IMG/VR virus record: IMGVR_UViG_3300034121_001925
Span: 1-49,880 of that record
Origin: a virus
Strand: one strand, 5' to 3'
DNA length: 49,880 bases
Part shown: in pieces, positions 3,555 to 19,818 of the stretch
Numbering within the stretch: position 1 is the first letter of the stretch
How the letters are laid out: the number at the start of each line of letters is the position of its first letter
Translations under genes and position numbers: made by a program
The notes under the pieces: model-generated
The model's database searches: none
Seen by the model: only the letters and a program-made list of their open reading frames with translations
Told to the model about the DNA's origin: nothing

Positions 3555-3573
3555 ATAATGTTATACACTTCTT

Positions 3574-3936: not shown

Positions 3937-3997
3937 AACTTGACATACACCTAAAAAACGTAAATGGATTTTTTTTTAAAAAAAAGAAGATAAACGC

Positions 3998-4030
3998 AAA
4001 AAAAACGCAAGCCCAATTGGACTTGCGTTT
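3998..4030 (-). terminator. strong intrinsic terminator after the major capsid gene
   Basis: The minus strand shows AACGCAAG / CTTGCGTT around CCAATTGG, giving a long stem, followed by eight T. It isolates the highly expressed capsid transcript from the connector genes. Confidence 0.9.
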
Positions 4031-4050
4031 CTTTAATTACTTATTTCTTA

Positions 4051-5157
4051 TTACAAGACGAGACCGACGATTGCTTTCGAATCAGTGGCGATACGACCTT
4101 CTCTACGCTGAGCATAGAAGCCGAGTTTTTCACTTCTGCGAACCCACTGGTCATCTGGCTCAACAACTGTTTCGCTACCTACTTCAGCGTCGCTTTCGAC
4201 GATTTTAAGGAAGGCAGGAACTGAGAGGTCAAGACCGATGGCGAGTTGTTGTGTAGCAGCTGCGAAGGTGACTTCGGAACCAACAGCAGTGTAATAATCA
4301 TCAAAGAGATAAGAGTAAGGCTGGCCGACTCCCATTTCATTTAGAGTGATTAGATTGACACCGAACAACTGTGAGATACCTCCATTACGATAAATTTCTT
4401 CACGTAAGCTGTCAGGAGCTCCTAGAGCTGTGCTTTCATCACTATTAGGGAAAGCAGCAGTGTTTTGAGGATTGTAACTCATAGCACGAATATCACCTTC
4501 AACTTCAGGAGAAATGATAAGGTGAGTTAGACCACGGCCCGGAGCCGAGACAGGAGTACCACCTGACCAAGATGTCCGCAAACGCTTAACTTTAGTCCAT
4601 AGAGTATTCAAGTCAGCGAGTTTAAATGTACCAGTAGTGCTACCGTCATAAAGCTGAGATGTTCCGACTGAACGTGAATTAGCAAGGGAAGCAAGAAGAG
4701 TGGCCCAGTTCAAGTATTCGCTCTTAGCGAGAATTTCTTGGGTCATTCTTTTGATCATTGCGGTCATTACATCGAGACGAGCACTCTGAGCATACTGCTT
4801 TAGGCAGGAAACAGCAGAGGTGAGTGAATCGACGGTGAAACGGAAGTCATCCATACCACTCACGTGATTTGTAGCTAAACCGCCAGCTATTGTTTCAGAC
4901 CATACAGTCAAAAGACCTTCTGTATTCTGTTCGAAAAGATCGAGAGGAATAGAAGGATTGGTTCCTGAATCATAAGTGAACTTTTGATAAACAAGATTGG
5001 AAGTAGCAGTTTGATCTAGAACTTGGTCGATGGTAGGACCAACGAAAGCTGCAAAGACTTCCTGTGCGAGCCATGACTCTTCTTTATTGCGTGAGCCCAT
5101 GGCTTGCAAAATTTCACGAGTCTTAGCTTGTTCTTCTTTAGATAGATTAAGTTTCAT
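4051..5157 (-). CDS. major capsid protein (368 aa)
   Basis: Length, position directly after the protease-scaffold gene and composition fit an HK97-fold capsid subunit: an N-terminal helical arm (residues 1-45), a long central domain, and a C-terminal segment with YLFDDYYTAVG and VTFAAATQQLAIG stretches typical of the P/E-loop region. Codons are visibly less AT-rich than in neighbouring genes, consistent with high expression. It has no Shine-Dalgarno sequence (upstream AATTTAAA) and its own strong terminator. Fold assignment is by recognition and context, not by a search. Confidence 0.85.
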   Translation of the reverse strand: MKLNLSKEEQAKTREILQAMGSRNKEESWLAQEVFAAFVGPTIDQVLDQTATSNLVYQKFTYDSGTNPSIPLDLFEQNTEGLLTVWSETIAGGLATNHVSGMDDFRFTVDSLTSAVSCLKQYAQSARLDVMTAMIKRMTQEILAKSEYLNWATLLASLANSRSVGTSQLYDGSTTGTFKLADLNTLWTKVKRLRTSWSGGTPVSAPGRGLTHLIISPEVEGDIRAMSYNPQNTAAFPNSDESTALGAPDSLREEIYRNGGISQLFGVNLITLNEMGVGQPYSYLFDDYYTAVGSEVTFAAATQQLAIGLDLSVPAFLKIVESDAEVGSETVVEPDDQWVRRSEKLGFYAQRREGRIATDSKAIVGLVL

Positions 5158-5180
5158 TTTAAATTAAATTATATATAGGG

Positions 5181-5765
5181 TTAGAGTTCGACCTTGAATA
5201 GAGCGTAACCATCATAATCAGCAGCGCTCAAGAAACGACCAAAAGATGTTCCTTTGCTATAAACGCCGACAACTCCAGAACCATTAAGGCAATTGTTAAT
5301 TCCTGAACCAGCAGCAGCAGTTCCAGTAAAACCCTTCAAGGCGATTAGGCCACGGGCTAGAATTGGAAGAGCTTCACCAGATACGACGACTTCTTGTTCA
5401 ATCCGCTCGTACTTAGGACGTGATAGGAAAGACTCACCGTAAGCATTGTTTTCACGAACATCGTAAAGAGCAACGCCAAGAGGAACAGTACCAGATGGAG
5501 CAGCTTGAACTTTCCACTTGACCTCAGAACGATAAGAAGTTACACGAGAAGGACCGTTGCCATAAGCTGGTCCAGCGCCGAGTAGAGGGGTTGGCGGACG
5601 ATTAGCGTTTTGAATGACATTCAAGTTGCCACTTGCACCCGCAACGATAGAAACGAAAGTACCCTTATTTAAGGATGCTACGTTCGCAGAGAAGAAACCA
5701 TTATAAACCTCATGTTCGTCATAATCACGATATGGTTTAATATTTGGGGACTGAGTTATATTCAT
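5181..5765 (-). CDS. possible capsid decoration or stabilisation protein (194 aa)
   Basis: Beta-rich, Gly/Ala/Ser-rich protein without Cys-rich motif or membrane segment, encoded between the protease-scaffold and the capsid gene. Like the capsid gene it uses less AT-rich codons, suggesting an abundant virion protein. Head-decoration genes often occupy this position. Name inferred from context. Confidence 0.55.
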   Translation of the reverse strand: MNITQSPNIKPYRDYDEHEVYNGFFSANVASLNKGTFVSIVAGASGNLNVIQNANRPPTPLLGAGPAYGNGPSRVTSYRSEVKWKVQAAPSGTVPLGVALYDVRENNAYGESFLSRPKYERIEQEVVVSGEALPILARGLIALKGFTGTAAAGSGINNCLNGSGVVGVYSKGTSFGRFLSAADYDGYALFKVEL

Positions 5766-5778
5766 GTGTTATAAATTA

Positions 5779-7218
5779 TTATAGTTTGATTTTGATTGAA
5801 GACAAAGCTTGTTTCCAGCTTTCGATTTTATTTCCTTTTTCGTCTTGAGAATTCGGAACAGCCGGATTAATAGCTGAGGCCTCGACCTCTAGAACAGAAA
5901 CACTCGATTTCGACTTAAATAATGGCTTCATATCTTCGAGCCATTCGCTAAAGTCTTCATCTGATAAACCGAAAATGCGCTTTGCGATTGTTTTAGATGC
6001 GGCTGCATCTAGTTCAAATTGCTCCTTGAGAGACTCAATTCTTTCGCTAAATTTAGCTTGATCTTCTTGAGCTTTCAAAGAGGCTTTGAGTTCAGAAACT
6101 TCACTGCGAAGCTTTTCTGATTCTTCTTGGAAATTTTCAATATTGGCTAAAGCATCCTGAAGAGCTTGCTCTTTTTCTGCTTTTTCATTTTTAAGAGCAA
6201 CGAATTGATCGTTGGACTTTTCGACTTGAGAAACGACAAAATCTCTCACATCCGAAGCAGCTGCTTCGTGAAGATGGTCGATCAATTCATCTAGATTATT
6301 ATACTTCATATGTACAATTACACGTTTTTTGTTATTTGGTGAAATTTTATCAGAAATTATATCAGAAATACTAGATTCAACCTCTTCTACATCCTTTTCT
6401 TCTTCTTCTAATTCTTCCATTTCATGTTCCGAATCTTCTTCTGGTTCCTCTTCCTTATCTTCTTCTTTTTCTTGGAAATCTTGGTAGTCCATAGAAAGAA
6501 CTCCCTTAACAGCCGCAGCTGGATTTGTAGTGAAGGCACAACCTAGAAAACGACAGTCGTCTCCTATAATTCTATAAACTTCTTCTCCAGTGGGAATGAA
6601 ACCTGTTCCTCCCATTGAAACTAAGTATTTTGAATACTCTTCTACAGAAGCTTCGTCTTCTATTATTCTGGCTTTTCTTAAGTCTTTACTGCCCACAGCG
6701 AGCTTATAAGTATTAAAGCCAACTTCCCAACTTGTAGAGACAGTCTTGTAAGATTCGCTGTCTTCATCTTGAGATTCCATAATGAATCTTGCAAATGTTT
6801 TGTTAGATATCTTCCAAACAATAGCAGCCAAAGATATGTTAAAGGGATCATTATTTAATTCTTGTTCAGTTAAAGTTTTGTTTTCACCAAAAGTCGAAAA
6901 GCCGTAATTAGTGATAACCCCTACTATGTCTTCCCTAGAATGTTCAATATTCATGGGTTTCAATTTAATGGATTGTACTAAAATTTTAGCGCCCTCAGTT
7001 GTAATACCATCCCCATTTAAATTTATAGAATTTACAACAGCCGCATTAAAGCATGTGTACAAAAGATCTGGATTATTTTTTATAATCTCCGATTCTGGCA
7101 ATAAAGATTTTAAATCATCTAACCCCATGTTGGCTTCACTTACATAAGCTCCATTCAATAAATCTTTCTTCCTAAAATCCGCCTTTACTTCAAATCTCGA
7201 AATATACTTGTACTCCAT
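5779..7218 (-). CDS. prohead maturation protease fused to scaffold (479 aa)
   Basis: Residues ~1-240 look like a phage prohead protease: conserved His in MNIEHSRED (H93) and a later Ser in TVSTSWEVGFN (S161 or S163), the usual His/Ser pattern of this class. Residues ~250-285 are almost only Glu/Asp, and ~320-420 form a long coiled coil (EKEQALQDALANIENFQEES), typical of scaffold proteins. The C-terminus (~430-479) could be the capsid-binding end. A GTGTAAAATA box (7224-7233) lies 8 nt before the ATG. It would assemble and then digest the prohead interior. Confidence 0.8.
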   Translation of the reverse strand: MEYKYISRFEVKADFRKKDLLNGAYVSEANMGLDDLKSLLPESEIIKNNPDLLYTCFNAAVVNSINLNGDGITTEGAKILVQSIKLKPMNIEHSREDIVGVITNYGFSTFGENKTLTEQELNNDPFNISLAAIVWKISNKTFARFIMESQDEDSESYKTVSTSWEVGFNTYKLAVGSKDLRKARIIEDEASVEEYSKYLVSMGGTGFIPTGEEVYRIIGDDCRFLGCAFTTNPAAAVKGVLSMDYQDFQEKEEDKEEEPEEDSEHEMEELEEEEKDVEEVESSISDIISDKISPNNKKRVIVHMKYNNLDELIDHLHEAAASDVRDFVVSQVEKSNDQFVALKNEKAEKEQALQDALANIENFQEESEKLRSEVSELKASLKAQEDQAKFSERIESLKEQFELDAAASKTIAKRIFGLSDEDFSEWLEDMKPLFKSKSSVSVLEVEASAINPAVPNSQDEKGNKIESWKQALSSIKIKL

Positions 7219-7240
7219 AGATGTATTTTACACTCAAAAA

Positions 7241-8062
7241 CTAGGAAACGAAAAATTTTAATAAGTTTTCAGAAGATAGGAAGCCTTGGGTCTTCAGAGT
7301 TCCTCTACCAAACTTGTTAAATTTCCTGATATAAATACCATCTCCAGCTCTTTGAAGATTTTGATTTGTAGTTTCTCCAGACGATGTATTCCCTTCTAAA
7401 GTGACAAGCATATCGCCCTTTATATCAAGAACTATGCCTGTATGCCCAGAATCTGTTTCTCCAAATTTAGCCAACCATATGCTGCCTAAAGACGGTGTTA
7501 TAGATAAAATGTTTTTAGACTTAAGTAGTCTAACATTAGTCATTACATGGGCGGTCCAGTTGTTTATAAATTTTGAAGAAGATAATTTGCAATCTTGAAG
7601 AGCCATTATAACAAAAGCCCCGACTGCGGCAGAACAATATGGCGCTCCGGGTGTCCAACCTTCTATTTCTCTCATGTAAGAAGATAATTTTAAAGACTGT
7701 TCTTTTTGTATACCCTTTATATCAGGATCATCCCATTCAGAGTTAGGTTTTATCTCAACTAAACCCTCAAACTCTTGAGATCTTTTTAATAGATTTATTA
7801 TAAATTCATTAGTTAATGAGCGGTCAACAGTTGCACCTCTTTCTTCAGAAAAAGAAAAGCTATCTTTTAAAAGAGAGTCAATTGTTTTCTTTCCTATTAT
7901 TCCATCTGCTTGTAGTCCTTTTAATTTTTGATATTCTATAATATATTTCTGAGTTTCAGTGGAAAACTCCCCATTAGTAGATTTTATAGGATACCCAATT
8001 CTTTTTAAAAAAAGTTGAATAAGTCTAACTTCATTTCCCGAGGACCCTAATTTTAATAACAT
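7241..8062 (-). CDS. endolysin: peptidoglycan-binding plus CHAP-like amidase (273 aa)
   Basis: Residues 1-66 are a PG_binding_1-type domain (LGSSGNEVRLIQLFLKRIGY, then ADGIIGKKTIDSLL). Residues ~130-270 look like a CHAP/NlpC-type cysteine peptidase with C143 in APYCSAAVG, H207 in DSGHTGIV and E223/N225 in TLEGNT. No signal peptide, so release needs the holin. It is the last gene of the lysis cassette, one base after the lipoprotein gene. It should cut cell-wall peptides or the amide bond at lysis. Confidence 0.85.
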   Translation of the reverse strand: MLLKLGSSGNEVRLIQLFLKRIGYPIKSTNGEFSTETQKYIIEYQKLKGLQADGIIGKKTIDSLLKDSFSFSEERGATVDRSLTNEFIINLLKRSQEFEGLVEIKPNSEWDDPDIKGIQKEQSLKLSSYMREIEGWTPGAPYCSAAVGAFVIMALQDCKLSSSKFINNWTAHVMTNVRLLKSKNILSITPSLGSIWLAKFGETDSGHTGIVLDIKGDMLVTLEGNTSSGETTNQNLQRAGDGIYIRKFNKFGRGTLKTQGFLSSENLLKFFVS

Positions 8063-8063
8063 A

Positions 8064-8402
8064 TTATTGTTTGTTTATTCTAGAAAGTTCCATAAATATA
8101 GCCATATATTCAGGAGTTAAAATAAAGTTTTTTTCATAAGGCATTAATCCTTCTGAAATTTTAACAGCTGGAACAATTTTATTTCCAAACCTCTCTGTTA
8201 ATAAAGAGTATCTTTGCGCTGCGGCTGGAGTTATTAAAAAACCAACATTATCAATATATGTAATCAAGCCCGAGTTCTGAGATTGATTATCCCAGCTGGC
8301 TTGAGATTCTTTTATAGGGGGAGGAACTATAGTAACCGATTCGTCTTTAATTTTGCAGGAACTCAAAATTAGAGTCATTAAAATAAAATTTAAAGTTTTC
8401 AT
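8064..8402 (-). CDS. small lipoprotein of the lysis cassette (112 aa)
   Basis: The N-terminus MKTLNFILMTLILSSCK is a lipoprotein signal with lipobox LSSC. The mature part has a Pro-rich stretch (VTIVPPPIKE) and a helical C-terminus. It overlaps its upstream neighbour by 4 nt and ends next to the endolysin. An outer-membrane spanin subunit (Rz1-like) is possible but not shown. Confidence 0.65.
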   Translation of the reverse strand: MKTLNFILMTLILSSCKIKDESVTIVPPPIKESQASWDNQSQNSGLITYIDNVGFLITPAAAQRYSLLTERFGNKIVPAVKISEGLMPYEKNFILTPEYMAIFMELSRINKQ

Positions 8403-8653
8403 TTAGCTATTATTTTTCTGATTTCTTCTAAACTCATCTCTCTTTGAGCTCCAGCTGTATTAACTACGTCTGCAATAAGTTTTTCATCTTTATCTTTTTC
8501 GTTTACTTCCTGTTGATTAACTTCTCTTTCTTGAAAAACTTCTTTATTTTTTATTTCTATTTCCTGTTTTTTTACCTCTTTGTGGATACGGAAAATAGAT
8601 AATAATTCAGATATTGCTTTGAATATATATTCCATAATTTTTTTCCAGTTCAT
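8399..8653 (-). CDS. small coiled-coil protein of the lysis cassette (84 aa)
   Basis: Amphipathic N-terminus (MNWKKIMEYIFKAISELLSIF) followed by a highly charged coiled coil (KKQEIEIKNKEVFQEREVNQQ). It overlaps both neighbours by 4 nt. An inner-membrane-linked spanin-like partner of the adjacent lipoproteins would fit the architecture, but the N-terminal helix is only weakly hydrophobic. Function unproven. Confidence 0.6.
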   Translation of the reverse strand: MNWKKIMEYIFKAISELLSIFRIHKEVKKQEIEIKNKEVFQEREVNQQEVNEKDKDEKLIADVVNTAGAQREMSLEEIRKIIAK

Positions 8654-9111
8654 TCTATTAAGTATTTGTTAGAGGCTATTTTGCAACCAGCCGAGATTTT
8701 ATTTAATGCTGTAAGTAAAATTCTAGCTTTCGTATTGGCTTCTAATTGATTAGTTTGACTATAAAAATCTGCGTACAAAAGAATTATATTCACGGCAAAA
8801 TCATTCAAAGAAGAACCCTCGGGAACATATCTCGATATAATAGCTGCAAATGATTCTGGTGTAATATCATCTTCGACTGTAAGATTCTCTATTGTAAAAG
8901 ATATATCATAAATAACTCGGGCAATTTTAGCTCTTGTTTCTTCAGATTTTTCTTGAGCTAAAACAACTGATGTGATATAGCTAGAAGAAGATTTCAAATA
9001 GACAGAAGACCTAGATAGGTTATTATAAAAATCTGTTTGGTTTAAAGATGAGCAGCTAGAGCTAAAAAAAGCTACAAACAAACAAAGAAGTATTACTCTA
9101 AAATTTTTCAT
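8650..9111 (-). CDS. lipoprotein of the lysis cassette (153 aa)
   Basis: MKNFRVILLCLFVAFFSSSC is a lipoprotein signal with lipobox SSSC. The mature protein is mostly helical. It follows the holin-like gene with a 14-nt overlap and overlaps the next gene by 4 nt. The cassette therefore has two lipoproteins. A role in outer-membrane disruption is inferred. Confidence 0.65.
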   Translation of the reverse strand: MKNFRVILLCLFVAFFSSSCSSLNQTDFYNNLSRSSVYLKSSSSYITSVVLAQEKSEETRAKIARVIYDISFTIENLTVEDDITPESFAAIISRYVPEGSSLNDFAVNIILLYADFYSQTNQLEANTKARILLTALNKISAGCKIASNKYLIE

Positions 9112-9370
9112 ATTTAATTTTTTCTATTTCCTTCTCTAATGACTTTGCTGTTTTTTCTGATTCTTTTACATCTCTACTATTGCGACCTATTTGAATCATT
9201 CCAACGCCGATCAAGAATGCTAATAATTGTCTTATAGTATTCTCCCAATATTCGGGTAATGGATCTAAAATTTCAGGATAGAAAGCTAAAAAAGAACATA
9301 TACCGGAAACTAATCCGGCTAACGAAGTCCTCCAACTAGATCCTAAAAGTTTTTCCATTAAGGTTTGCAT
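9098..9370 (-). CDS. holin-like membrane protein (90 aa)
   Basis: The ATG at 9370 (MQTLMEKLLGSSW) is preferred because a GTGTAATTGT box (9375-9384) ends just before it; a longer frame from 9406 would run into the upstream gene. Two hydrophobic segments (about residues 14-31 and 47-63) are followed by a charged C-terminal tail (RNSRDVKESEKTAK). The pattern SWRTSLAGLV...GRNSRDV resembles phage holins that end with a RDN-type tail. It should time lysis by opening the inner membrane. Confidence 0.75.
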   Translation of the reverse strand: MQTLMEKLLGSSWRTSLAGLVSGICSFLAFYPEILDPLPEYWENTIRQLLAFLIGVGMIQIGRNSRDVKESEKTAKSLEKEIEKIKYEKF

Positions 9371-9386
9371 AATTACAATTACACTG

Positions 9387-9989
9387 CTATGAAAACAAAA
9401 TGCCAAAAAATTTTTCTATAGAACCGTCTATGTTTTTTATAGGCCAAGCTACTATAGAGATATCTTTATTGTCACTGTTGCTCAAAATTGCATTAAAATG
9501 GAATTCCCTTTTTTGTTCCATGCAAGATAACCATTCTTCTTTAGCTTCTTTTCTCATTTCCTTATTAATTATACCTAACCATCCATCTCCTATAGCTTGA
9601 TCTAAATTAAACTCTGTAATATCTGTCCATTTTTTACTAACAAAAGTATATTCTCCTTTGTTACTAGTTTCAAAATAAGCAACTCCCAAGCAGGAAGATA
9701 TTAGTCTTATTTTCTGTTCTGTATGGATTAAACTATTTTCCATCCTATTTAAAACGTCTCTTAAAGAACTTCCTCCGTTAGGTTTGAATTCAGAAGTAAC
9801 TCTTTTAAGCTCTGGTATTAAATCTAAAAATTCAGTAACAGACTTGTTCGCTGCTTTTATGCTTTTATAAAAACTTTTTAAGAATTTGAAAAGTCCAAAA
9901 ATAAAAACAGATATACCAAGCAATGCAGCTATAACTTCTTCCCAATGAACAAGACTATTATCGAAGTTTTCAAAAAAAGATAGAAACAT
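9387..9989 (-). CDS. membrane protein with a PAS sensor domain (200 aa)
   Basis: A hydrophobic segment (about residues 18-36), a helical linker (40-95), then a PAS fold over ~97-200: TFVSKKWTDITEFNLDQAIG, GWLGIINKEMRKEAKEEW, and a final beta strand before the C-terminus. No histidine kinase, cyclase or other output domain follows. It is the first gene of the lysis cassette, with a GTGTAATATTT box (9993-10003) 7 nt before its ATG. A sensor acting on lysis timing or on a host membrane protein is possible (inference). Confidence 0.75.
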   Translation of the reverse strand: MFLSFFENFDNSLVHWEEVIAALLGISVFIFGLFKFLKSFYKSIKAANKSVTEFLDLIPELKRVTSEFKPNGGSSLRDVLNRMENSLIHTEQKIRLISSCLGVAYFETSNKGEYTFVSKKWTDITEFNLDQAIGDGWLGIINKEMRKEAKEEWLSCMEQKREFHFNAILSNSDNKDISIVAWPIKNIDGSIEKFFGILFS

Positions 9990-10056
9990 AATAAATATTA
10001 CACTGATGTAGAGTTTTTAAGAAACAAAAAATTGAATATACTGTATGTATATATAA

Positions 10057-10938
10057 ATGTTATTATTCTGTGGTAATAAAATACTTAGACATGCGGGAAC
10101 ATTATCAGCTATAATGGTTTCTGTAGGAGATAGAATTGATGAAGAGTGTTATGATGTATTATTCAACGATGGAACGAATGCTATTCTACCTAAAGGAATT
10201 AAAATAAGTCTTATTGAACATAAACATCTCCAAATAGATAGAGAAAGAGAAGACTGCTCGTATGGTACAAGGTCCAAATTCAGGTTAAAAAAAGTAATTC
10301 CCGAATTTACTAAAACTAATAAAGATGCTTACTTTATAGGATTTTGCATATGCTTACCTATAAAAAATGGAGAAATACAAACTAAAAAGAAATCAATAAT
10401 AGATATAAATTCTGTTCCTAATCAATACTTTAACATGGACGTGAAAAGTATGCCCAATGATTATTTTAAGATAATCGCCGCAGAAGGATATCCTAATCTC
10501 ATTAAATTAGAACTCAAAAGAATAAGAAATTTTACTAAGTTAAGAGATAGATTTATTCCAGATGAGTATTTGTTCTCCTCTATCGAAGATAGAATTTCAT
10601 TGATACGCGGGTGCATGGATGCCTGCGGAAGATTTTGTAAAAGCGAGACGACATTTGAAACATCCTCTAGACAACTTGCCAAAGACTTTTCTTTTTTGAT
10701 TAAATCAATAGGTGGCTTCTGTAAAATAAGATCTAAGCAATCAAAAAGAGAATATTATATTTTGTCAATTAGTTTCAATAATGATTTTAACCCTTTCTTA
10801 ACAAAGGCTAATACTTTCCGCCCGAGTAAAAACCCTAGAGTAAGATCTATTATAAAAATAGAAAAAGCGGGAGTTTTACCATGCTTGGAAACCCCGCTCG
10901 ATTCTGTCATTTTAGAAAATCTTGTAGAAGTTAGCTAA
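10057..10938 (+). CDS. free-standing intein-like (Hint/LAGLIDADG) homing endonuclease (293 aa)
   Basis: The N-terminus contains VSVGDRIDEECYDVLFNDGT, like intein splicing blocks. Residues ~173-245 resemble a DOD (LAGLIDADG) endonuclease: DRISLIRGCMDACGRFCKS, SSRQLAKDFSFLIKSIGG and YYILSISF. The end (RSIIKIEKAGVLPCLETPLD) resembles intein C-terminal blocks, but no host protein sequence flanks it and it ends at a normal stop (VEVS). It overlaps the convergent phoH gene by 8 nt. Probably a former intein living as a stand-alone mobile endonuclease. Confidence 0.65.
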   Translation: MLLFCGNKILRHAGTLSAIMVSVGDRIDEECYDVLFNDGTNAILPKGIKISLIEHKHLQIDREREDCSYGTRSKFRLKKVIPEFTKTNKDAYFIGFCICLPIKNGEIQTKKKSIIDINSVPNQYFNMDVKSMPNDYFKIIAAEGYPNLIKLELKRIRNFTKLRDRFIPDEYLFSSIEDRISLIRGCMDACGRFCKSETTFETSSRQLAKDFSFLIKSIGGFCKIRSKQSKREYYILSISFNNDFNPFLTKANTFRPSKNPRVRSIIKIEKAGVLPCLETPLDSVILENLVEVS

Positions 10939-11695
10939 CTATACTCTCTTTATTTCTTTCTTGATATTGTTCTACTTTACTGACCACGAATTGCACGAAA
11001 GGACTTCTTACAATCTGAGAACTATCTAGTTTAAAGTATCTAAACCCGTGATCTTTAGACTCTTCATCCCCGAATATTTCGATAAACTTTCTAAATCCAG
11101 ATAGTTTACCTAAATCGTTTTGGAAAACGCTATCTCCAATAACAAAAAGTTTACTATACATACTTAGTCGAGTTGCTATCGTAAAGATAGAATCAAAAGT
11201 CATGACTTGAGACTCTTCGCATATAACAGCAGAGTTATGAAAATTATAAGATCTTAACATTGAAGTTGGATAACATTTTATCCTTTCTTGTTCACCTAAT
11301 CTTTTAATATCATTACCCGGAATGATTTCAGATAGAGTTTGATTTAAGGCCTCATTATAATAGAAGGTCTTTTCATCTAGATCCCCTTTTAGATATCCAG
11401 TTTGTCCATCTTTAGCTTGAACTAAAGATCTTAAATATACAATCTGTTTAACTATATGGAGGTCAAGAAGCATAAGAGAAGACAGAATAGTCGTCCAACT
11501 TTTTCCCGTCCCCGGCACCCCATCTATAACAACACATTTAACTTCTTTATCCAGAGCGGCTTCTATTATTTGTTTCTGAACCTCAGTTAAATCATTCCTA
11601 TGCTGTATATTTAAACTGAAATTTAAATTAGGATCTTCTTTAACCTTAGAATTTTTTCTGGTTAAATCCGACAGAGCTTTTGGTTTATTTGCCAT
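10931..11695 (-). CDS. phoH: PhoH-like P-loop ATPase (254 aa)
   Basis: Walker A GVPGTGKS at residues 59-66 and a Walker B-like SAVICEESQVM at 155-164, with the usual PhoH order of YLRSLVQAKDGQTGYLKGD, then the SYNFHN segment and SKLFVIGDSVFQND. Family length fits. PhoH proteins of phages are ATPases or helicases linked to RNA or nucleotide metabolism; the exact role is not settled. A GTGTATA box (705-711 of kb 11) is 9 nt before the ATG and faces a divergent copy for the next gene. Confidence 0.85.
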   Translation of the reverse strand: MANKPKALSDLTRKNSKVKEDPNLNFSLNIQHRNDLTEVQKQIIEAALDKEVKCVVIDGVPGTGKSWTTILSSLMLLDLHIVKQIVYLRSLVQAKDGQTGYLKGDLDEKTFYYNEALNQTLSEIIPGNDIKRLGEQERIKCYPTSMLRSYNFHNSAVICEESQVMTFDSIFTIATRLSMYSKLFVIGDSVFQNDLGKLSGFRKFIEIFGDEESKDHGFRYFKLDSSQIVRSPFVQFVVSKVEQYQERNKESIVS

Positions 11696-11700
11696 GTAAT

Positions 11701-11735
11701 TAAATATACACTCAAATTTTGGTGTATAAAAATAA
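11701..11735. promoter_or_regulatory. back-to-back late-type promoter boxes
   Basis: TATACAC (705-711) read on the minus strand and GTGTATAAA (722-730) read on the plus strand form an inverted pair ten bases apart between phoH and the beta-helix gene. No -35 TTGACA-like box is present on either side. Confidence 0.55.
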
Positions 11736-11753
11736 AGTTACCCCAAGAAAATT

Positions 11754-12938
11754 ATGCCTTTACCTGATAACTTTGCACTTTTAGCTCTAAGTCCCACGAT
11801 CAGGGAAAACGATGGATTCCTATTCCTACAAACAGGTCAAGCAGGTTATATAGACATAATGGTTCAATCAGCTACGGGCTTGCCAGTCAATATATTAAAA
11901 GTTGGGTCTGGCGTTCCGGTTTCTCAATATATATATGTTAATCAGAATGGTAATGATTCTACAGCTAAAAAAGAAACTATAGATTTTCCTTTTAAAACTA
12001 TAGCAGCAGCTTTAAATACAGCAACTGCAAATGATACTATAGAAGTTTTTCCCGGAGTTTACAATGTGTCTGGAAATATGTATAAGGTTGGAGTTAATTA
12101 TTATTTAAATAAAAATACTAATATAAATTTTGTAACAAATGGAAAACTTCATATAACAGGTTTGGATACAGGAGATTTTAATATATTTGGAAATGGAGTA
12201 TTAACTCAAGATTCAGCTGCTAATGATCTATTCCATATTTCAGGTGGAAAAGTTACTTTAGAAGTCGATAGAATTCAAGCTGCTAGTTGCAATTTTCTTA
12301 TAAATGAAGTCGCGAGTTCTTTGTCTTATTTAGTCATGAAAACAAAAGGGGAGGGGACTGTTGATGATGGTCACTTCTATTTTAGCACTTTAAACATAAA
12401 AAACTCTACTACAAAATTTGAAGGGATAAAGTTTAAAGGAACTTCTATATCCGTTCAAGCAAATTCTACCAAAGATATTGAATTCGAAGACTGTTTATTC
12501 GATGGGACAGATTCTTCTCCTAGCAATCCTATTTACAGATTAACAGGTAAATATAATTTAACTAATTGTTCTTTCACAAACTCCTTCCCACATTTTACAG
12601 CTCTCGGTAAATCAAGAATCAGAAATACTATATTCAATGGGGGGATAGTAGTCTCAGGATCTAACTATTTCGACTCTTGTGTTTTTGATACTAAAGCTTC
12701 TACCCTGTATCCCAACTCGTCTTTAATAACTTGTTTAGGCGGAAACTCTTTATTCTCAAATTGTTACGTTAATAATTTTAATAATAACACTAATGTATTC
12801 TATACATTCAGGGCATCAGGATCAGCTTCTGGAGCTTCAGACTTTAACATAAATGGGACATTCTCATCTTTTGATCCAGTTTTTTCAGGAACTGTTATTA
12901 AATTCGGTACGTTCATTTATGACGTAAATTTAAAATAG
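11754..12938 (+). CDS. right-handed beta-helix tail protein (394 aa)
   Basis: After a ~55-residue head there is YIYVNQNGNDSTAKK, then DFPFKTIAAALNTATAND and TIEVFPGVYN, the hallmark opening of DUF1565/pectate-lyase-like beta-helices. The rest is a series of short beta strands with Asn/Ser turns, ending without a recognised trimerisation domain. It probably forms a tail spike or fibre binding or cutting surface sugar; no catalytic residues can be assigned. GTGTATAAA lies 24 nt upstream of the ATG. Confidence 0.75.
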   Translation: MPLPDNFALLALSPTIRENDGFLFLQTGQAGYIDIMVQSATGLPVNILKVGSGVPVSQYIYVNQNGNDSTAKKETIDFPFKTIAAALNTATANDTIEVFPGVYNVSGNMYKVGVNYYLNKNTNINFVTNGKLHITGLDTGDFNIFGNGVLTQDSAANDLFHISGGKVTLEVDRIQAASCNFLINEVASSLSYLVMKTKGEGTVDDGHFYFSTLNIKNSTTKFEGIKFKGTSISVQANSTKDIEFEDCLFDGTDSSPSNPIYRLTGKYNLTNCSFTNSFPHFTALGKSRIRNTIFNGGIVVSGSNYFDSCVFDTKASTLYPNSSLITCLGGNSLFSNCYVNNFNNNTNVFYTFRASGSASGASDFNINGTFSSFDPVFSGTVIKFGTFIYDVNLK

Positions 12939-12986
12939 ACACAATTATTTTAATAATCTGTATAAACTTAACACAATAGGAAAAAA

Positions 12987-13328
12987 ATGCCAAATATTTA
13001 TTGCCCATCGTGCGGAAGCGGAATTAAATTCCTCTACGAAAAACCAAAATCTTGCAGTAATTGTAAATTTGTTTTCGCCGTACCTATTAAATTAGAAGAA
13101 GAAAAAGATTATAATGAAAGTGTATCTTTCAAAAAACTTCCAAAAAATAAAATTTCTCTTAAAGATATAAAAATAACAATAGAAAAAATTACGCCTATTA
13201 AATTAAGTTCTGTCTTGGGTTCTGATCCTAACAACGAATCTTTCAAAAGGAAGGGTTTAACAAAGGAAGAATTCAGACAACAGGTATTTAAGTCAGGGCC
13301 AATTTCCCTAGATGATGATCAAATTTGA
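12987..13328 (+). CDS. zinc-ribbon protein next to the sigma-like gene (113 aa)
   Basis: Two CxxC pairs, CPSC at residues 6-9 and CSNC at 23-26, make a short zinc ribbon; the remainder is Lys/Glu-rich and probably disordered. A CTGTATAAA box is 25 nt upstream and GGAAAAAA precedes the ATG. It overlaps the next gene by 17 nt. A transcription-related role, for example as a late-transcription co-activator, is suggested only by its neighbour. Confidence 0.7.
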   Translation: MPNIYCPSCGSGIKFLYEKPKSCSNCKFVFAVPIKLEEEKDYNESVSFKKLPKNKISLKDIKITIEKITPIKLSSVLGSDPNNESFKRKGLTKEEFRQQVFKSGPISLDDDQI

Positions 13329-13989
13329 AGATAAAATAAAATGTATAGACTCACTTATACAAAAAAATAGAGGCAGATGGCGTCTATCTGATATATGCGG
13401 TTTTGGATTTGAGGATTTAGCCCAAACAATAAGACTTCATATTTATAACAAGTGGGCTCAATGGGATCAGGAAAGACCATTCGAATACTGGTGTAATAAG
13501 ATAATAATAAACCAGATAAAGAACACAGTAAGAGATAGATATTCAAGAGATGCCCCTCCTTGCTTCAGCTGCCCATTCGATAGAGGTTCAGATTTATGTG
13601 GTTATACTAAGAGCGGAGTAAAATGTGATCAGTGCCCGTCTTTCTGCAAGTGGGCAAAAAAGAAACAAAATAAATTCTTACTAAAAACAGCTCTTTCAAT
13701 TGATAGTGAGAATTTCAAAGAAACTCAAGATTTTTCTGATCCAATATCTTCTATAAAACTTGAATCCTCTGTTATAAAATTCCATAAGTTTATTTGTCAA
13801 TTCCTTAATCCTAAAATGGTAAATTTTTATGGATTAATATATATAGAGAATTTAAAAGACGAACAAGTAATAGAAAGACTCAAAAATATAAATGGAAAGG
13901 GCATAACTAAAAGACAGCTTATAACTATAAGAAAGAATTTGCAGATTATAGCTAAGAAAAAAATAAGCGAATTCGATCCCGAAGAATGA
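13312..13989 (+). CDS. divergent sigma70-family factor with inserted cysteine cluster (225 aa)
   Basis: Residues 33-77 match sigma region 2 in pattern: FEDLAQTIRLHIYNKWAQWD, ERPFEYWCNKIIINQIKN and TVRDRY. Directly after it come six cysteines (C84, C87, C96, C105, C108, C112) likely binding metal. The C-terminal part (about 160-215: KMVNFYGLIYIENLKDEQVI, then GITKRQLITIRKNLQ) has the look of a region-4 helix-turn-helix. It could direct host RNA polymerase to the GTGTATA boxes as T4 gp55 does for its late promoters. The start may be 13312 or 13315 (two ATGs). Family assignment is by pattern only. Confidence 0.65.
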   Translation: MMIKFEDKIKCIDSLIQKNRGRWRLSDICGFGFEDLAQTIRLHIYNKWAQWDQERPFEYWCNKIIINQIKNTVRDRYSRDAPPCFSCPFDRGSDLCGYTKSGVKCDQCPSFCKWAKKKQNKFLLKTALSIDSENFKETQDFSDPISSIKLESSVIKFHKFICQFLNPKMVNFYGLIYIENLKDEQVIERLKNINGKGITKRQLITIRKNLQIIAKKKISEFDPEE

Positions 13990-15128
13990 ACACTTCAATA
14001 AGAACAAACCTAACTGAAAAATTAGGTAAAAAAATAGATAGAAAGAACATAAACTTATGTGATAAAATAATTTGTCAGCATAAATATGAATTAGATTTAA
14101 ATCAGCAGGACTATCTAAATGATAATAAGAACTGTAAAGAAAGTAATATCCTATCTCTCGCACAAGAGGTTTATAAGAATTCGAAGCTCATAGAGCAGAC
14201 AGAGGAGTTCAAGAATGTAAGGAAATTTTTACAAAAATTATGGAGAGGCGGAGAGTATGATAATTATACAGATGAGCAATTAGATTTTCTTTTCGAAAAT
14301 GCGGAACATTTAACTCCTAAAGAAATAGCCAAAACTCTGTTTCCCGATAAAGAATATATAGTCTCTTTAAGAACTATTACATCCTTATTAGATGCGGCAG
14401 GTTTTAGAGAAGTTAAAGATGACGAAAAAATAGAAAGAACGAATGCTAGATATAACTCTCCTAGAACAGATTTGCAAGTTATGAATCTCATAAATAGATC
14501 AGATCATTCTGCGAAGTATGATTCTGATAAAATGGATATGAGGAAAAAAGATTCTATTGCTGCTGTGAAAAAATTCTTATCAGCTCCTAGATTCGTCGAA
14601 ATGATTTCTATGATTACGAATGTAAAACATAGAGAAGTTTTTGAAACAGAATTCGTAAAGGCTGTTTATAATAAACCGGATTTAAATTCAGACGAAGTTA
14701 ATCTTTATATAGGACTAGCTTTAGAATATGTAACTTTAATCGAGATAAGACAGCAGATAACAATCCTAAATGATAGATTAACAGAGTCTATGTCAGATGA
14801 TGAAGAGGGCAGAAAATTTACGATGTCTTTATCAGAAGCTTTAAAAGATAAGACAGCAGCTTATAATCATTGCCTAGAAAGAACTCTTAAAATGACACGC
14901 TCTTTGAGTGGAGATAGAATTAAGAAGCTAGAAAAACAAGCTTTGGCTAATCAGAGTTTAGCTCAGTTCATTGAACTTGTTCAAGATGAGAAAGAAAGAA
15001 GAAGGATGATACTAATCGCTAAAGCAGAAGAGTTCAAAGTCAAAGAAAAAATACAAGAGTTAGAAAACTTTTCAGAGCTTTTTGTTGAAGTTTACGGTGT
15101 CGGCAAAGAGGAGGTATTCTCTCTTTAA
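13986..15128 (+). CDS. candidate terminase small subunit or DNA-packaging protein (380 aa)
   Basis: Large helical protein. Residues ~110-150 (LTPKEIAKTLFPDKEYIVS, RTITSLLDAAGF) resemble a helix-turn-helix. The second half (~225-370) is long helices with many charged residues, as in oligomerisation domains. It overlaps the sigma-like gene by 4 nt and the ERCC4 nuclease by 1 nt, in the block ending with large terminase and portal. DNA recognition for packaging is inferred from place and the putative HTH. Confidence 0.45.
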   Translation: MNTSIRTNLTEKLGKKIDRKNINLCDKIICQHKYELDLNQQDYLNDNKNCKESNILSLAQEVYKNSKLIEQTEEFKNVRKFLQKLWRGGEYDNYTDEQLDFLFENAEHLTPKEIAKTLFPDKEYIVSLRTITSLLDAAGFREVKDDEKIERTNARYNSPRTDLQVMNLINRSDHSAKYDSDKMDMRKKDSIAAVKKFLSAPRFVEMISMITNVKHREVFETEFVKAVYNKPDLNSDEVNLYIGLALEYVTLIEIRQQITILNDRLTESMSDDEEGRKFTMSLSEALKDKTAAYNHCLERTLKMTRSLSGDRIKKLEKQALANQSLAQFIELVQDEKERRRMILIAKAEEFKVKEKIQELENFSELFVEVYGVGKEEVFSL

Positions 15129-16045
15129 TGAAATGTCTAGAATGTTTATCTGATTTTTCTAGTGAAAAGGGATTACATTTACATGTTTCCAAGAAGCATA
15201 AATTCTCTTTGCAGGAATATTACAGTAAACATTTTCCTAGATTCGACAAATTCTCTAATGAACCAATAAAGTTTAAAAATTTTGAAGAGTATTTTTTAAC
15301 TGATTTCAATTCAAAAGAAAACTTAGCTAATTGGTGTTTCAAAGAAGAGAAAACTATTGTAAGAGATTACATTTGTAAGCTTTTTAAAGCAAGATGCAAT
15401 AAGAAAAAAACGCTTTTCGTTCCATCTAATATAGAATTGAAAAGTTTATTCTTGCCATCTTGGCAGGGTCTTGTTAAAATCTTTGATACTAAAGAAAATA
15501 TAATAAAGGCATTAACGAAGCAAGGGCTTAGATTCAAATATGATTATATATCTACTCCCACATTTAGTGATATAGAACCAGAGATTTTAATAGACACTAG
15601 AGAACAAAACCCATTAGAGTTTAAAGATTCTAAAAAAATGAAATTGAGTTGTGGTGATTATGGAACATCGGGGCCTTTATTTTCTGATGTTTTTGTGGAG
15701 AGAAAAAGCTTAGAAGATTTGATATCAACTTTAGTTTCCGGGGCCGAAAGATTCGATAGAGAAATATCAAGAGCTGAAGATCTCGGTTACTATCTAGTAG
15801 TTTTAATAGAGAATAAATTTCAGAATGCTTTAAACTATAGTCCAGAAAAAAGTTTCAGTAAATATATAAATGGAAAGTTTGTTTTCCATAAGATTAGAGA
15901 AATTTACGCAAAGTACAATAATATACAATTTATCTTTTCTGATTCTAGAGAAAACTCTAAATATATAATGATAAAGATTTTTCAGATGAAAGAAAGTGTA
16001 AAGAAATTCGATTTAGAATTTTTGAAAGATTTTAACCAGATATAA
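15128..16045 (+). CDS. ERCC4-type nuclease with N-terminal C2H2 finger (305 aa)
   Basis: Residues 3-24 form a C2H2-like finger (CLECLSDFSSEKGLHLHVSK, closing H). The ERCC4 nuclease core starts near residue 152: ILIDTREQNPLEF, then LSCGDYG and VFVERKSLEDLIST, giving the family's D, E and ERKxxxD catalytic pattern; it ends near YYLVVLIENKF. Such nucleases cut branched DNA with a 3' flap. Lying directly before the large terminase, it may clear branches before packaging (inference). Confidence 0.8.
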   Translation: MKCLECLSDFSSEKGLHLHVSKKHKFSLQEYYSKHFPRFDKFSNEPIKFKNFEEYFLTDFNSKENLANWCFKEEKTIVRDYICKLFKARCNKKKTLFVPSNIELKSLFLPSWQGLVKIFDTKENIIKALTKQGLRFKYDYISTPTFSDIEPEILIDTREQNPLEFKDSKKMKLSCGDYGTSGPLFSDVFVERKSLEDLISTLVSGAERFDREISRAEDLGYYLVVLIENKFQNALNYSPEKSFSKYINGKFVFHKIREIYAKYNNIQFIFSDSRENSKYIMIKIFQMKESVKKFDLEFLKDFNQI

Positions 16046-16047
16046 AC

Positions 16048-17925
16048 ATGTGGAACGAAGGTGCTCATCCTACCCCTTTTAGGAAATCGACTAATGATGA
16101 ACTTGATAAAGTCAAAGGGATACTTTCTGAGGCGGAAGCTCAACAATGGTTCGCTAGATATTGTTTAGCTAATCCCGCATTCATGGTTTATCTTTTGACT
16201 AGAGTCAAGCTAGATCCTGTACAAGATCTAATGTTAAGATCCTTTATTTTAAAAGATTATTGCCTTGTTGTAGCTGGGCGGGGATTTTCAAAATCTTTCG
16301 TAATTTCTTTATTCTGTATAATATATGCTCTAGGCAATCCCGGCGTTAAAATAGGTATAGCCTCGGGAACATTTCGTCAGTCTAAATCTATAATGAAGCA
16401 GATTGATAGCTTCGCTTCTCATCCTAAGAACGGAACCTTTTTAAGATCCTGCATAACAAAACAATTATCAAAATCAAGTGACGCTTGGTCAATGGAAATT
16501 GGTTATTCGTCTATAACAGCTATCCCTCTAGGTAAAGTTAGAGGTTACAGATTCAATGTTCTTATTGTTGACGAGCTTTTAGTAGTGAGTAAAGAAATCA
16601 TAGATTCGATTCTTAAGCCGTTCTTGATGGTTAGACAAGATGGCCCTCAGCACGAAGAAATCACAAACGCTCAAAAACTTTTAGTTGCAAATGGAGTTTT
16701 AAACCCAGAAGATGTACAACAGTTTTCATCTAACAATAAAATTATTGGTTTATCTTCTGCAAGTTACAAATTTGAATCTCTTTATAGAGATAATTATGTG
16801 CCTTATGTAAAAACAATTCTAGACCCAGAAGCTGAGAATGTTAATCATTGCGTTTTCAGAATGTCTTACAGAGCTGCCCCTAAAGGCTTCATGGAAGAAT
16901 CGGCTATTGAAGACATGAGAAGAACAATGTCTAAGTCCATGTTCGACAGAGAGTTAGAAGCTATATTCGGAGATGATACAGGTGGTTATTTTTCAGCTCA
17001 AGCTATCGAAGAAGCAAGTGTAAAACTCGGAGAATATCCTACCGTAAAAATAGTCGGAGATCTAGATAAAAAATACATATTATCAATAGATCCTAACTAT
17101 AATAATTCTGAAACCTCAGATGACTTTGCAATGGCTGTTCTCGAACTCAATGAAGAGGATGAGTCAGCAACTCTTGTTCATGCTTACGCTTTGCCGAATA
17201 GTACCAATGAGAAAAGATGTTTATATTTGAAATACCTTCTTGAAAAGTTCAATGTAGTATACATGATTATAGATAATAGCGGAGGTCCTGCATTCTTGCA
17301 GATTGGAAAAGAATTCAAATTGATGCCCAGAGAGTTACATCTTTTTGATCACGATTTCTTGAATTATAATTCCAATGAAGGCATCTTATATTCTAAAAAT
17401 AATTATGTTCCAAAAGATGGTAAGATAGTTCACTCTCAAGCTTTCGGCGTTGGAGGATGGTTAAGGTTTGCAAATGAAAACTTGCAATGGATGATAGAAA
17501 AGAAAAAAATAAGATTTGCCGCTCCAGTATTTAACGATTCAGACTTTCAAAAAGCTATAAATGAAAAATTTCCTATAGAAGATTTACATTATTCTAAGAC
17601 TCAAGATATTAGTAAAGAAGAAACCAAAGAGATAGCTAAAAATGTTCAAGAGGAAATGAAAGTAGATTTTGTAGAGCATCTAGGAGATGTTATAAATCTA
17701 ACTAAAAGGGAATGTTCCCTTATAGAAGTCTCCACTAGCCCAAATGGCAATCAACAGTTTGATTTGCCAGCTACAATGAAAAGAGATAGCAATCCTCATA
17801 AAGCCCGAAGGGACTCTTACACTGCTCTTCTATTGGGAAGCTGGGGTGTTAAATGTTATTTTGATATGAATAGAGAACAAGAGGTAAATAAATCTTTTGA
17901 ATTCGTTCCAAGGATGTTTAGATAA
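16048..17925 (+). CDS. terL: terminase large subunit (625 aa)
   Basis: ATPase: Walker A-like VVAGRGFSKS near residue 75 and Walker B VLIVDELLVV near 170. Nuclease: RNase-H-like start ILSIDPNYN near 343 and IIDNSGGPAF near 405. Length and two-domain order are typical. It packages DNA into the prohead by pumping it through the portal encoded next. It follows the ERCC4 gene after 2 nt; no ribosome-binding site is visible. Confidence 0.92.
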   Translation: MWNEGAHPTPFRKSTNDELDKVKGILSEAEAQQWFARYCLANPAFMVYLLTRVKLDPVQDLMLRSFILKDYCLVVAGRGFSKSFVISLFCIIYALGNPGVKIGIASGTFRQSKSIMKQIDSFASHPKNGTFLRSCITKQLSKSSDAWSMEIGYSSITAIPLGKVRGYRFNVLIVDELLVVSKEIIDSILKPFLMVRQDGPQHEEITNAQKLLVANGVLNPEDVQQFSSNNKIIGLSSASYKFESLYRDNYVPYVKTILDPEAENVNHCVFRMSYRAAPKGFMEESAIEDMRRTMSKSMFDRELEAIFGDDTGGYFSAQAIEEASVKLGEYPTVKIVGDLDKKYILSIDPNYNNSETSDDFAMAVLELNEEDESATLVHAYALPNSTNEKRCLYLKYLLEKFNVVYMIIDNSGGPAFLQIGKEFKLMPRELHLFDHDFLNYNSNEGILYSKNNYVPKDGKIVHSQAFGVGGWLRFANENLQWMIEKKKIRFAAPVFNDSDFQKAINEKFPIEDLHYSKTQDISKEETKEIAKNVQEEMKVDFVEHLGDVINLTKRECSLIEVSTSPNGNQQFDLPATMKRDSNPHKARRDSYTALLLGSWGVKCYFDMNREQEVNKSFEFVPRMFR

Positions 17926-17971: not shown

Positions 17972-17986
17972 GTGTATAGTAGTGTA
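17972..17986 (+). promoter_or_regulatory. late-type box before the portal gene
   Basis: GTGTATA (17972-17978) is followed after 7 nt by the portal ATG. There is no -35 hexamer at the right distance and no Shine-Dalgarno sequence. Same arrangement as for the capsid-side genes at 3554, 7218 and 9989. Confidence 0.55.
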
Positions 17987-19818
17987 TGGCTCGTAAACCC
18001 AAAAGCAACGCTGTAGTTGTAAACTCAGACCCTTTCACTCCAAAGTTCATTTCAGAATCAGCAAGAGACTTAAGAAATAGGGGTACAAATTCTTTCCAGA
18101 ACCCGTTATCAGGACTTTCAGGGGAAATAGAAAATATTAACAAAGGTGTATCACCTTTCTCAAGAGATAACTCAGGAACTCTAAGTGCTCAACAAGCTAT
18201 TATCTTGTGTCAAAAAGCTTATTGGAATGTTGCCATATTTAGAAATACTATTGATATTCAAACAGAGTTTGCTAATTCGAAATTACACTTCAGAGGCAAA
18301 AATAAAAGATCTGTTAAATTTTACGAGGAATGGTATAAGAAAATAAATGGTTGGTCTTTATCAGAAAGATTTTTTAGAGAATGGTTTAGATCTGGAAATG
18401 TTTTTATTTATAAATTCCTGTATAATGTTACGAGTCCTGAAATAAATAAAATGTCTAGAGCTCAAGCTCAGAAAAAAATCCCTTTACGATATACTATTTT
18501 AAATCCAGCCGATATGAGAGCTGAGGGGTCAGCAACTTTTGTGAATTTTAATTATTATAAGTTATTGAATACCTACGAGTTAGCTAGACTAAAAACTCCC
18601 AAAACAGAAGATGAGAAAAGATTCATGGATTCATTACCTGTTAATATTAGAGAACAAATCAAAAGAGGAGAGTTGCCTGAGATCCCTATAGACACAGAAT
18701 ATCTAACAGCTATATTTTGTGGCAAGCAAGATTATGAAGCTTTGTCTGTGCCAATGTACTATCCTGTTCTTTTTGATATTGATTTAAAGCTAGAGTTCAA
18801 GAAGATGGAAAAAGTTATAGCCAGAACCGCTGACTATATGATCCTTTTGATTACAGCTGGTGATAAAGATAGAGATCCTAATACAAATTCAAGAATACTA
18901 GCTGCTTTACAAGATTTGTTCGAGATGGAAAGCGTAGGCAGAGTACTAGTGTCTGATTATTCTACTAAAGCAGAATTCATTTTACCAGATTTAAATAAAA
19001 TCTTGGGACCAGATAAGTATCAAGTAGTTAATCAGGATATTGCTAACGGTTTGATGAATATATTCTGGGGAGATGAGAAGTATGCCAATTCAATGGTAAA
19101 AATAAAAGTCTTTCTAGAGAGATTGAATTCAGCTAGACAGGCATTCTTGAATAATTTCTTAATTCCTGAAATGGAGATGATTGCTAATGAACTAGGATTC
19201 ACTGAAATACCTGAGCCCGTTTTTGATCAAGTAGATTTAAAAGAAGAAATCGAATATATGAAGGTTTATACAAGACTTGCTGAAATTGGCATGTTGACAC
19301 CAGAAGAACTATTCGAAACTTTAGAAACCCACAGTCTGCCTCTTCCAGAAAACTCAATTGAAGCTCACAATAAATTCAAAGAGCTTAAAGACAAGGGTCT
19401 TTATGAGCCAATCATTGGCGGACAGAAAAAAGAGGGAGGCACAGGCCAACCAGCGGGAAGACCAGCAGGAACAAAGGCTCCTCAAACTACTAAAAAGGTT
19501 TCACCAATAGGCGCATCTAAATTCAGTTTGCAAAAAATCTCTGAGAATATTAGATTGATTAATGATCTGTCAGAAGCTGTAGAATCGAACTATAGGAAAA
19601 TGAACAGTATCAAAAGACTCAGTTCCAAGCAGAAAGATTTATGCTGGCATGTAACGGAGTCTATTATCGCCTCTAAAAATGTAAACGATTGGCAATCGGA
19701 TATTCCTGATTGGATTAAAAATCCCACTATAGTACCGAACGAGGAGACTCTAGAGATCGCAACGGAACACAACGTCTCTATATTCTTGGCTGGACTACTC
19801 AAGGAGTCAAAAATTTAG
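17986..19818 (+). CDS. portal protein (610 aa)
   Basis: Size, place right after the large terminase, and a typical layout: N-terminal flexible part, central wing-like domain with FFREWFRSGNVFIYKF (typical portal segment), long stem helices, and a polar C-terminal tail with a Gly/Pro-rich stretch (GGTGQPAGRPAGTKAPQ) and a helical end. It forms the dodecameric DNA channel at one capsid vertex. Assigned by pattern and context. Confidence 0.85.
   Translation: MARKPKSNAVVVNSDPFTPKFISESARDLRNRGTNSFQNPLSGLSGEIENINKGVSPFSRDNSGTLSAQQAIILCQKAYWNVAIFRNTIDIQTEFANSKLHFRGKNKRSVKFYEEWYKKINGWSLSERFFREWFRSGNVFIYKFLYNVTSPEINKMSRAQAQKKIPLRYTILNPADMRAEGSATFVNFNYYKLLNTYELARLKTPKTEDEKRFMDSLPVNIREQIKRGELPEIPIDTEYLTAIFCGKQDYEALSVPMYYPVLFDIDLKLEFKKMEKVIARTADYMILLITAGDKDRDPNTNSRILAALQDLFEMESVGRVLVSDYSTKAEFILPDLNKILGPDKYQVVNQDIANGLMNIFWGDEKYANSMVKIKVFLERLNSARQAFLNNFLIPEMEMIANELGFTEIPEPVFDQVDLKEEIEYMKVYTRLAEIGMLTPEELFETLETHSLPLPENSIEAHNKFKELKDKGLYEPIIGGQKKEGGTGQPAGRPAGTKAPQTTKKVSPIGASKFSLQKISENIRLINDLSEAVESNYRKMNSIKRLSSKQKDLCWHVTESIIASKNVNDWQSDIPDWIKNPTIVPNEETLEIATEHNVSIFLAGLLKESKI

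Follow-up and report, generated by a model that had tools for sequence, protein, structure and literature searches.

Just upstream of the packaging genes of an uncultured virus lies a gene (13312-13989) whose product, P0001, raises the question of whether a sigma factor with an inserted metal-binding module could direct late transcription in this virus. The DNA analysed is a stretch of 49,880 nt, positions 1 to 49,880 of IMG/VR record IMGVR_UViG_3300034121_001925, and is referred to below as the window. A sequence-only reading had placed sigma region 2 at residues 33-77 of P0001, six cysteines at residues 84-112 and a putative region 4 at the C-terminus, and had proposed a metal-containing late sigma family paired with GTGTATA boxes. 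The observation was confirmed as real, and P0001 is a sigma-type protein of new architecture; promoter recognition and metal content have not been shown. The gene and the parts of its product are located as follows:

13312..13989, plus strand: sigma factor with an inserted Cys4 module, P0001, 225 aa (Pfam Sigma70_r2, AlphaFold2 model, Foldseek against the PDB, family of 463 confirmed stretches)
13399..13551, plus strand: sigma-2 domain, residues 30-80 (Pfam match at 30-76; confident helices 33-46 and 57-80)
13561..13647, plus strand: cysteine module, residues 84-112, with ligand set C84, C87, C96 and C108 (conservation in 50 representatives)
13759..13965, plus strand: sigma-4-like helical domain, residues 150-218 (modelled helices, Foldseek alignments, weak Sigma70_r4_2 in relatives)

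Residues 30-76 of P0001 match Pfam Sigma70_r2 (PF04542) with an E-value of 1.9e-6 and 28 bits, above the gathering cut-off of 24, and the region 2 assignment is upheld; the same model matches in 25/25 family members scanned (E up to 0.5). Several NCBIfam ECF sigma models match the region-2 stretch, all far below their own cut-offs, and P0001 does not reach the cut-off of the curated ECF model TIGR02937 (20 vs 42.9 bits). The Sigma70_r4_2 match is weak and was found in 5 of the 25 members scanned. The reading frame is kept full-length among relatives, at 76-100% identity in near ones and ~30-38% in distant ones.

The predicted fold was taken from an AlphaFold2 model based on a 50-sequence alignment, an earlier 8-sequence model (pLDDT 59.5) having been set aside. 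Its mean pLDDT is 78 and its pTM 0.44, the latter because the two domains are loosely connected. The sigma2 helices (33-46 and 57-80) are confidently modelled; the cysteine loop is ill-defined, with low confidence at residues 91-96, and is followed by a helix at 109-125 and then by a disordered linker. Helices 150-162, 167-178, 183-194 and 200-218 make up the sigma4-like part, where pLDDT is mostly high. In a Foldseek search of the PDB with this model, all 50 matches listed were sigma-factor entries (sigma H, E, 28, 32, B, S and 70), of which M. tuberculosis SigH complexes were the best, and viral matches to the model were mostly phage sigma factors. The alignments, 209-270 columns long, span both domains, with a probability of about 1.0 for most of the top matches. 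Against single sigma structures the TM-scores reach only 0.2-0.4, a low range that is expected of a flexible model with loosely placed domains, and the E-values are only about 1e-3 to 0.1; the search therefore supports the modelled architecture rather than its detailed geometry. Neither of the outcomes named beforehand as refuting a sigma factor was seen: the model has the sigma helices, and no non-transcription family gave a confident match. For region 4, support comes from the modelled fold, while by sequence it is barely detectable.

A single-sequence scan of IMG/VR with P0001 retrieved 16 near relatives, a profile scan added a marine group ~33% identical to P0001, and a combined near and marine profile gave 463 confirmed IMG/VR stretches, the best 80 of which were retrieved. 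The sigma gene is single-copy in 28 of 29 records tested. No family member was found among 50,697 deposited phage records (tblastn, four family queries), the sole match being a weak one to a Zobellviridae sigma factor (21% coverage, E 0.6), and single-sequence searches of deposited phages and the PDB gave no informative relative of P0001. Three family loci occur in metagenome-assembled bacterial genomes labelled Flavobacteriaceae, Halobacteriovorax and uncultured bacterium; these may be phage contigs inside the bins, and no host is claimed. A Flavobacteriaceae-labelled assembly (G041) carries two sigma-family members on separate contigs (C42:1323-1991 and C20:11920-12576). The family comes from uncultured, mostly aquatic phages and is large and, as far as searched, undescribed. 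No zinc-containing phage sigma factor was found in the open-licence literature, although a published description elsewhere is not excluded.

All six cysteines of the proposed cluster are present (84, 87, 96, 105, 108 and 112), but only four of them form a conserved core. Counted over 50 family representatives at 90% identity, C84 and C108 occur in 50/50 and C87 and C96 in 47/50, while C105 occurs in 13/50 and C112 is restricted to the closest relatives of the window; a site using all six as ligands is ruled out by the lack of conservation of the last two. The core spacing is CxxC-x8-C-x11-C in P0001 and CxxC-x8..24-C-x11-C across the family, the loop between C87 and C96 being variable in length, and no conserved cysteine lies beyond C108 in the 50 representatives. 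In the three exceptions (the L072, L074 and L076 groups), C87 and C96 are lost together and a CPxQH...CPIC set is gained. A structural metal site would be expected to lose and exchange its ligand-type residues together while keeping its position, as happens here, and conserved Cys/His ligands in finger spacing, four in number, are present throughout, as C84, C87, C96 and C108 or as the CPxQH/CPIC swap. One structural zinc site is likely, with zinc binding being inferred; the exchange of cysteine and histidine ligands favours zinc over an Fe-S cluster or a disulphide, which remain unexcluded. The replacement of central cysteine ligands by the CPxQH...CPIC arrangement is seen in a sub-lineage comprising L072, L073, L074, L075 and L076.

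An insert of ~70 residues, which includes the cysteine module and helix 109-125, parts sigma2 from sigma4. The module directly follows the last sigma2 helix, the place taken in primary sigma factors by sigma3 and the extended -10 reader, and because of this placement it is attractive, if pure inference, to think that it acts at the upstream end of the promoter box or in binding of the polymerase core.

The genes around P0001 form a cassette, the remaining members of which are:

12987..13328, plus strand: zinc-ribbon protein, whose gene leads the sigma operon (CxxC...CxxC N-terminus; upstream in 103/104 loci)
13986..15128, plus strand: conserved protein of ~350-380 aa downstream of sigma (125/125 loci)
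15128..16045, plus strand: ERCC4-type nuclease (Pfam ERCC4 2.5e-9, phrog_3490 4.1e-17; 107/107 loci)
16048..17925, plus strand: terminase large subunit, TerL (Terminase_6N 4e-6, phrog_2 1e-18; 73/74 loci)
17986..19818, plus strand: portal protein (weak phrog_2739 match, 0.012, and position after TerL)

The order zinc ribbon, sigma, ~350-aa protein, ERCC4 nuclease, TerL and portal is near-invariant. Synteny was followed over 136 loci, with each test counting only those loci with enough flank, and the zinc-ribbon gene was found upstream in 103 of 104, the ~350-aa gene downstream in every one of 125, and ERCC4, TerL and phoH in 107/107, 73/74 and 58/70, respectively. In the window, the sigma gene overlaps both the zinc-ribbon gene and the ~380-aa gene. 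Given this near-invariance across loci, sigma belongs to the core genes of the packaging cassette. The zinc-ribbon neighbour noted from the sequence alone is thus borne out, as is the position directly upstream of the packaging genes, with the qualification that the ~380-aa protein and the ERCC4-type nuclease intervene before TerL. The zinc-ribbon protein is strictly tied to the sigma gene and could be a co-activator or an anti-sigma factor. Family searches with the 13986..15128 product gave no confident match, and by position it is a candidate for the small terminase. In relatives, the N-terminus of the ERCC4-type nuclease is C2H2-like.

The pairing with GTGTATA boxes, a guess drawn from one genome, is supported by where the boxes lie and not by how many there are. 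The raw count in the window is 6 against 3.6 expected, a number reached by 15 of 100 shuffles, and enrichment as such was dropped as not being above chance; it is the position of the boxes that stands out instead. In an unsupervised k-mer search of 18 marine sigma-bearing contigs, GTGTAAA was the top enriched 7-mer in the 60 nt that precede genes, with 36 observed and a mean of 1.9 (maximum 6) in dinucleotide shuffles, and in window-like contigs GTGTATA was observed 19 times against a mean of 0.4 (maximum 2). The sigma factors of the contigs that yielded GTGTAAA are only 30-38% identical to P0001. One-base variants of the box are mostly rare. The proposed pairing thereby received an independent test, with the box corrected to a core of GTGTA and a variable tail in place of a fixed GTGTATA.

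The positional rule was examined by counting GTGTA at 7-34 nt ahead of the ATG, on the coding and on the opposite strand. Marine upstream regions gave 74/180 against 5, window-like regions 26/77 against 6, and those of the left part of the window 8/19 against 1, while the 72 upstream regions of the control phages T4 (0/17), HTVC008M (0/21) and Stahl (0/34) had none. With a looser gene list, HTVC008M showed 2/50 boxes, and T4, Stahl and a Zobellviridae phage showed none; the controls comprise these four phages only. Boxed regions are a minority (23-42% of upstream regions). The box starts exactly 14 nt before ATG in 29 of 93 distinct marine boxes, and none is nearer. The boxes of the window, conserved at orthologous genes between it and L149, L151, L153, L157 and L158, are:

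3562..3568, minus strand: GTGTATA, 14 nt before gene 3036-3554 (kept in L149)
3944..3950, minus strand: GTGTATG, 14 nt before gene 3574-3936 (kept in L149)
7227..7233, minus strand: GTGTAAA, 15 nt before gene 5779-7218 (kept in L149)
9378..9384, minus strand: GTGTAAT, 14 nt before the ATG at 9370 (kept in L149 and L158)
9997..10003, minus strand: GTGTAAT, 14 nt before gene 9387-9989 (kept in L149, L151 and L157)
11705..11711, minus strand: GTGTATA, 16 nt before the phoH ATG (kept in L149, L151 and L157)
11722..11728, plus strand: GTGTATA, upstream of gene 11754 (kept in L149 and L151)
17972..17978, plus strand: putative late-promoter box GTGTATA, 14 nt before the portal ATG (motif scan; portal orthologues boxed)

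The late box of T4, TATAAATA, lies at about -13 to -6 from its transcription start. Because its placement matches, GTGTA fits a -10-type box, with transcription predicted from this analogy to start at or next to the AUG.

The box precedes 54 of 56 portal genes, is found at the head of the sigma operon in 3 of 65 loci, and is absent from operon-internal TerL genes (0/74 loci). In the structural part of an 84.8-kb contig the operon heads are boxed, that of the tape-measure gene among them, and no boxes occur in the block after 59.5 kb, which carries primase and DNA polymerase genes; the contrast between structural and replication genes, drawn from this contig only, is borderline (Fisher p = 0.06) because the replication block has few operon heads. 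Such a distribution is what a sigma cascade predicts, in which sigma is made from a non-late promoter and then serves the late structural operons. Units of (G/A)ACTTT are repeated over the ~45 nt that precede the portal box (for example, in L148, L162, L174 and L175), and in many marine portal promoters a TATAAT lies about 14 nt downstream of the first base of GTGTAAA; an upstream element or an overlapping second promoter is possible.

The right half of the window differs in composition, with GC content stepping from ~0.32 to ~0.45 near 28.4 kb. The step raised the suspicion of a chimera, which was made unlikely by a contig from another sample (L191) that joins matches to 25.7-27.1 kb and 35.8-39.3 kb of the window (its parts 362-1753 and 2886-13750; 81-85% identity in the long matches). 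Since both sides are joined there, the halves are most likely parts of a single phage; the exact junction pattern had no match in viral contigs. Many right-half genes are preceded by a TTGC-type -35 and a TATAnT -10 spaced 16-17 nt apart, and the box genes of the left half have no -35 above background, except at 9370. In the region 28700-49642, the -10 hexamer lies only 12-15 nt before the start codon (for example, upstream of 37413, 37900 and 44014), and for this reason near-leaderless mRNAs may be general in this phage and its host. The window from 28300 to 49880 also contains a 17-nt repeat (CATGTTACACCATGC-type), with more than 50 overlapping copies in one family, and many longer intergenic repeats.

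The reading that we favour, with a probability of about 0.75, is that P0001 is a phage late sigma factor that takes the host RNA polymerase to promoters with a GTGTA(A/T)A box; recognition of the box, use of the host core, timing and zinc are all inferred, and the link between sigma and box is correlative, with neither biochemistry nor transcriptomics behind it. Transcription of the early half and of the sigma operon would fall to the host holoenzyme, which would presumably also make sigma, as the sigma-operon promoter lacks the late box in most genomes. P0001, arranged as sigma2, a four-cysteine zinc-finger-like module, a helix, a flexible linker and sigma4, would then bind the host core, with the cysteine module binding zinc in a structural role. 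The resulting enzyme would go to late promoters whose only recognisable element is the -10-type GTGTA(A/T)A, ~14 nt before the start codon, its targets being operon-leading genes such as portal. With the box so close to the start codon, many late mRNAs would have little or no leader. The metal-containing late sigma family originally envisaged is thus supported, with four ligand-type cysteines in place of six. Tentatively, and with considerable doubt, one might go further and suppose an undescribed class of phage late sigma factor, in which the inserted zinc finger replaces sigma3 or the extended -10 reader and itself reads the GTG of GTGTA(A/T)A; late promoters could then dispense with a -35, and transcripts would begin on or beside the AUG, throughout a large uncultured lineage of aquatic phages.

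Among known systems, the ECF (group 4) sigma factors (SigH, SigE/RpoE, SigW) share with P0001 the combination of sigma2 and sigma4, and its region-2 matches are to ECF models. ECF sigmas have a short linker, whereas that of P0001 comprises about 70 residues with the Cys4 module and an extra helix; unlike theirs, its proposed promoter has no recognisable -35, and no anti-sigma factor was recognised. Membership of the ECF family was ruled out by the ~70-residue insert and the score of 20 vs 42.9 bits. RinA/ArpU-type late activators of Gram-positive phages are small late-gene regulators encoded beside the terminase genes, and have only a sigma4-like HTH, without sigma2 or a cysteine module. P0001 resembles them as a proposed late regulator beside terminase genes and differs in adding sigma2 and the module; Pfam and NCBIfam scans gave no match of P0001 to this type. 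Phage sigma factors of single-HTH and RpoD-like types are described in a jumbo-phage review, in passages that mention no cysteine module (PMC7824862).

Other explanations must be weighed against a late sigma factor with a structural finger. The cysteine module might instead sense metal or redox state and so have a regulatory role, in the manner of CorE, CorE2 and OrbS. Known metal-sensing ECF sigmas do use cysteine clusters, and those of the CorE type need the CXC of their linker (PMC8999054, PMC9023288). CorE-like sigmas (CorE/CorE2, ECF238, former ECF44) combine a C-terminal cysteine domain with this CXC (PMC8999054) and OrbS (ECF243) has a C-terminal CX2CX3CX5C iron sensor (PMC9023288), so that a cysteine metal site in a sigma factor and, for the CorE-like proteins, linker cysteines are shared with P0001. 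Their cysteine-rich sensor is, however, mainly C-terminal, whereas the module of P0001 lies wholly between sigma2 and sigma4; the P0001 family lacks the C-terminal cysteine-rich domain, P0001 has no linker CXC, and assignment to CorE-like or OrbS proteins was ruled out. Moreover, the spacing CxxC-x8..24-C-x11-C with one concerted C/H swap resembles a structural zinc site, and sigma is a core packaging-cassette gene in all loci sampled, which leaves a sensor unlikely. It is also improbable, in our estimate, that the GTGTA boxes are read by some other factor, such as a host alternative sigma, the zinc-ribbon protein or the ~350-aa neighbour, with P0001 having another role, for example at middle genes. 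The association is correlative, the genes of both neighbours co-occur with the boxes just as strictly, and the head of the sigma operon is mostly unboxed; yet no other protein of the cassette was identified as having a sigma fold, P0001 alone carries an evident domain for reading a -10, and in a cascade it is normal for the sigma gene to lie outside its own promoter class.

Its place inside the packaging operon, and weak matches of 2/25 members to a 'terminase small subunit' PHROG (0.014), could be taken to mean that P0001 is a small-terminase-like packaging protein with a sigma-like helical fold. We consider this very improbable, as Sigma70_r2 scores above gathering, all listed PDB matches are sigma-factor entries, and the other conserved gene between sigma and TerL is free for the TerS role. 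A divergent T4 gp55-type sigma (gp55 acting with gp33 and gp45) would share with P0001 the service of late genes behind a -10-only box in a similar place, a trait seen in the window, where most box genes have no -35 above background, and the box itself resembles TATAAATA (TGTAAAT vs TATAAAT). Nevertheless, T4 gp55 belongs to a different PHROG (phrog_234, 2.9e-69), to which neither P0001 nor its relatives have a match, and this excludes P0001 from the gp55 family; the box assigned to P0001 is GTGTA(A/T)A. P0001 has a sigma4-like domain and a cysteine module, and T4 gp55 is reported to lack a sigma-4-like domain. Family-B DNA polymerase was not found in 11 records, with a phrog_405 polymerase in one examined, and gp55 kinship is scarcely credible. 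The T4-type clamp model PF09116 was silent in 12 records and also in all control genomes.

A late sigma factor of this kind would couple a new architecture to a defined promoter motif with a rule for its placement, in a large lineage without a match among deposited phage genomes, and would allow late genes to be annotated in metagenomic phage contigs by the hundred. A single purified protein and a single promoter should be enough to test directly what purpose a metal module serves when inserted into a sigma factor, and how late transcription operates with near-leaderless mRNAs and, it seems, without a -35.
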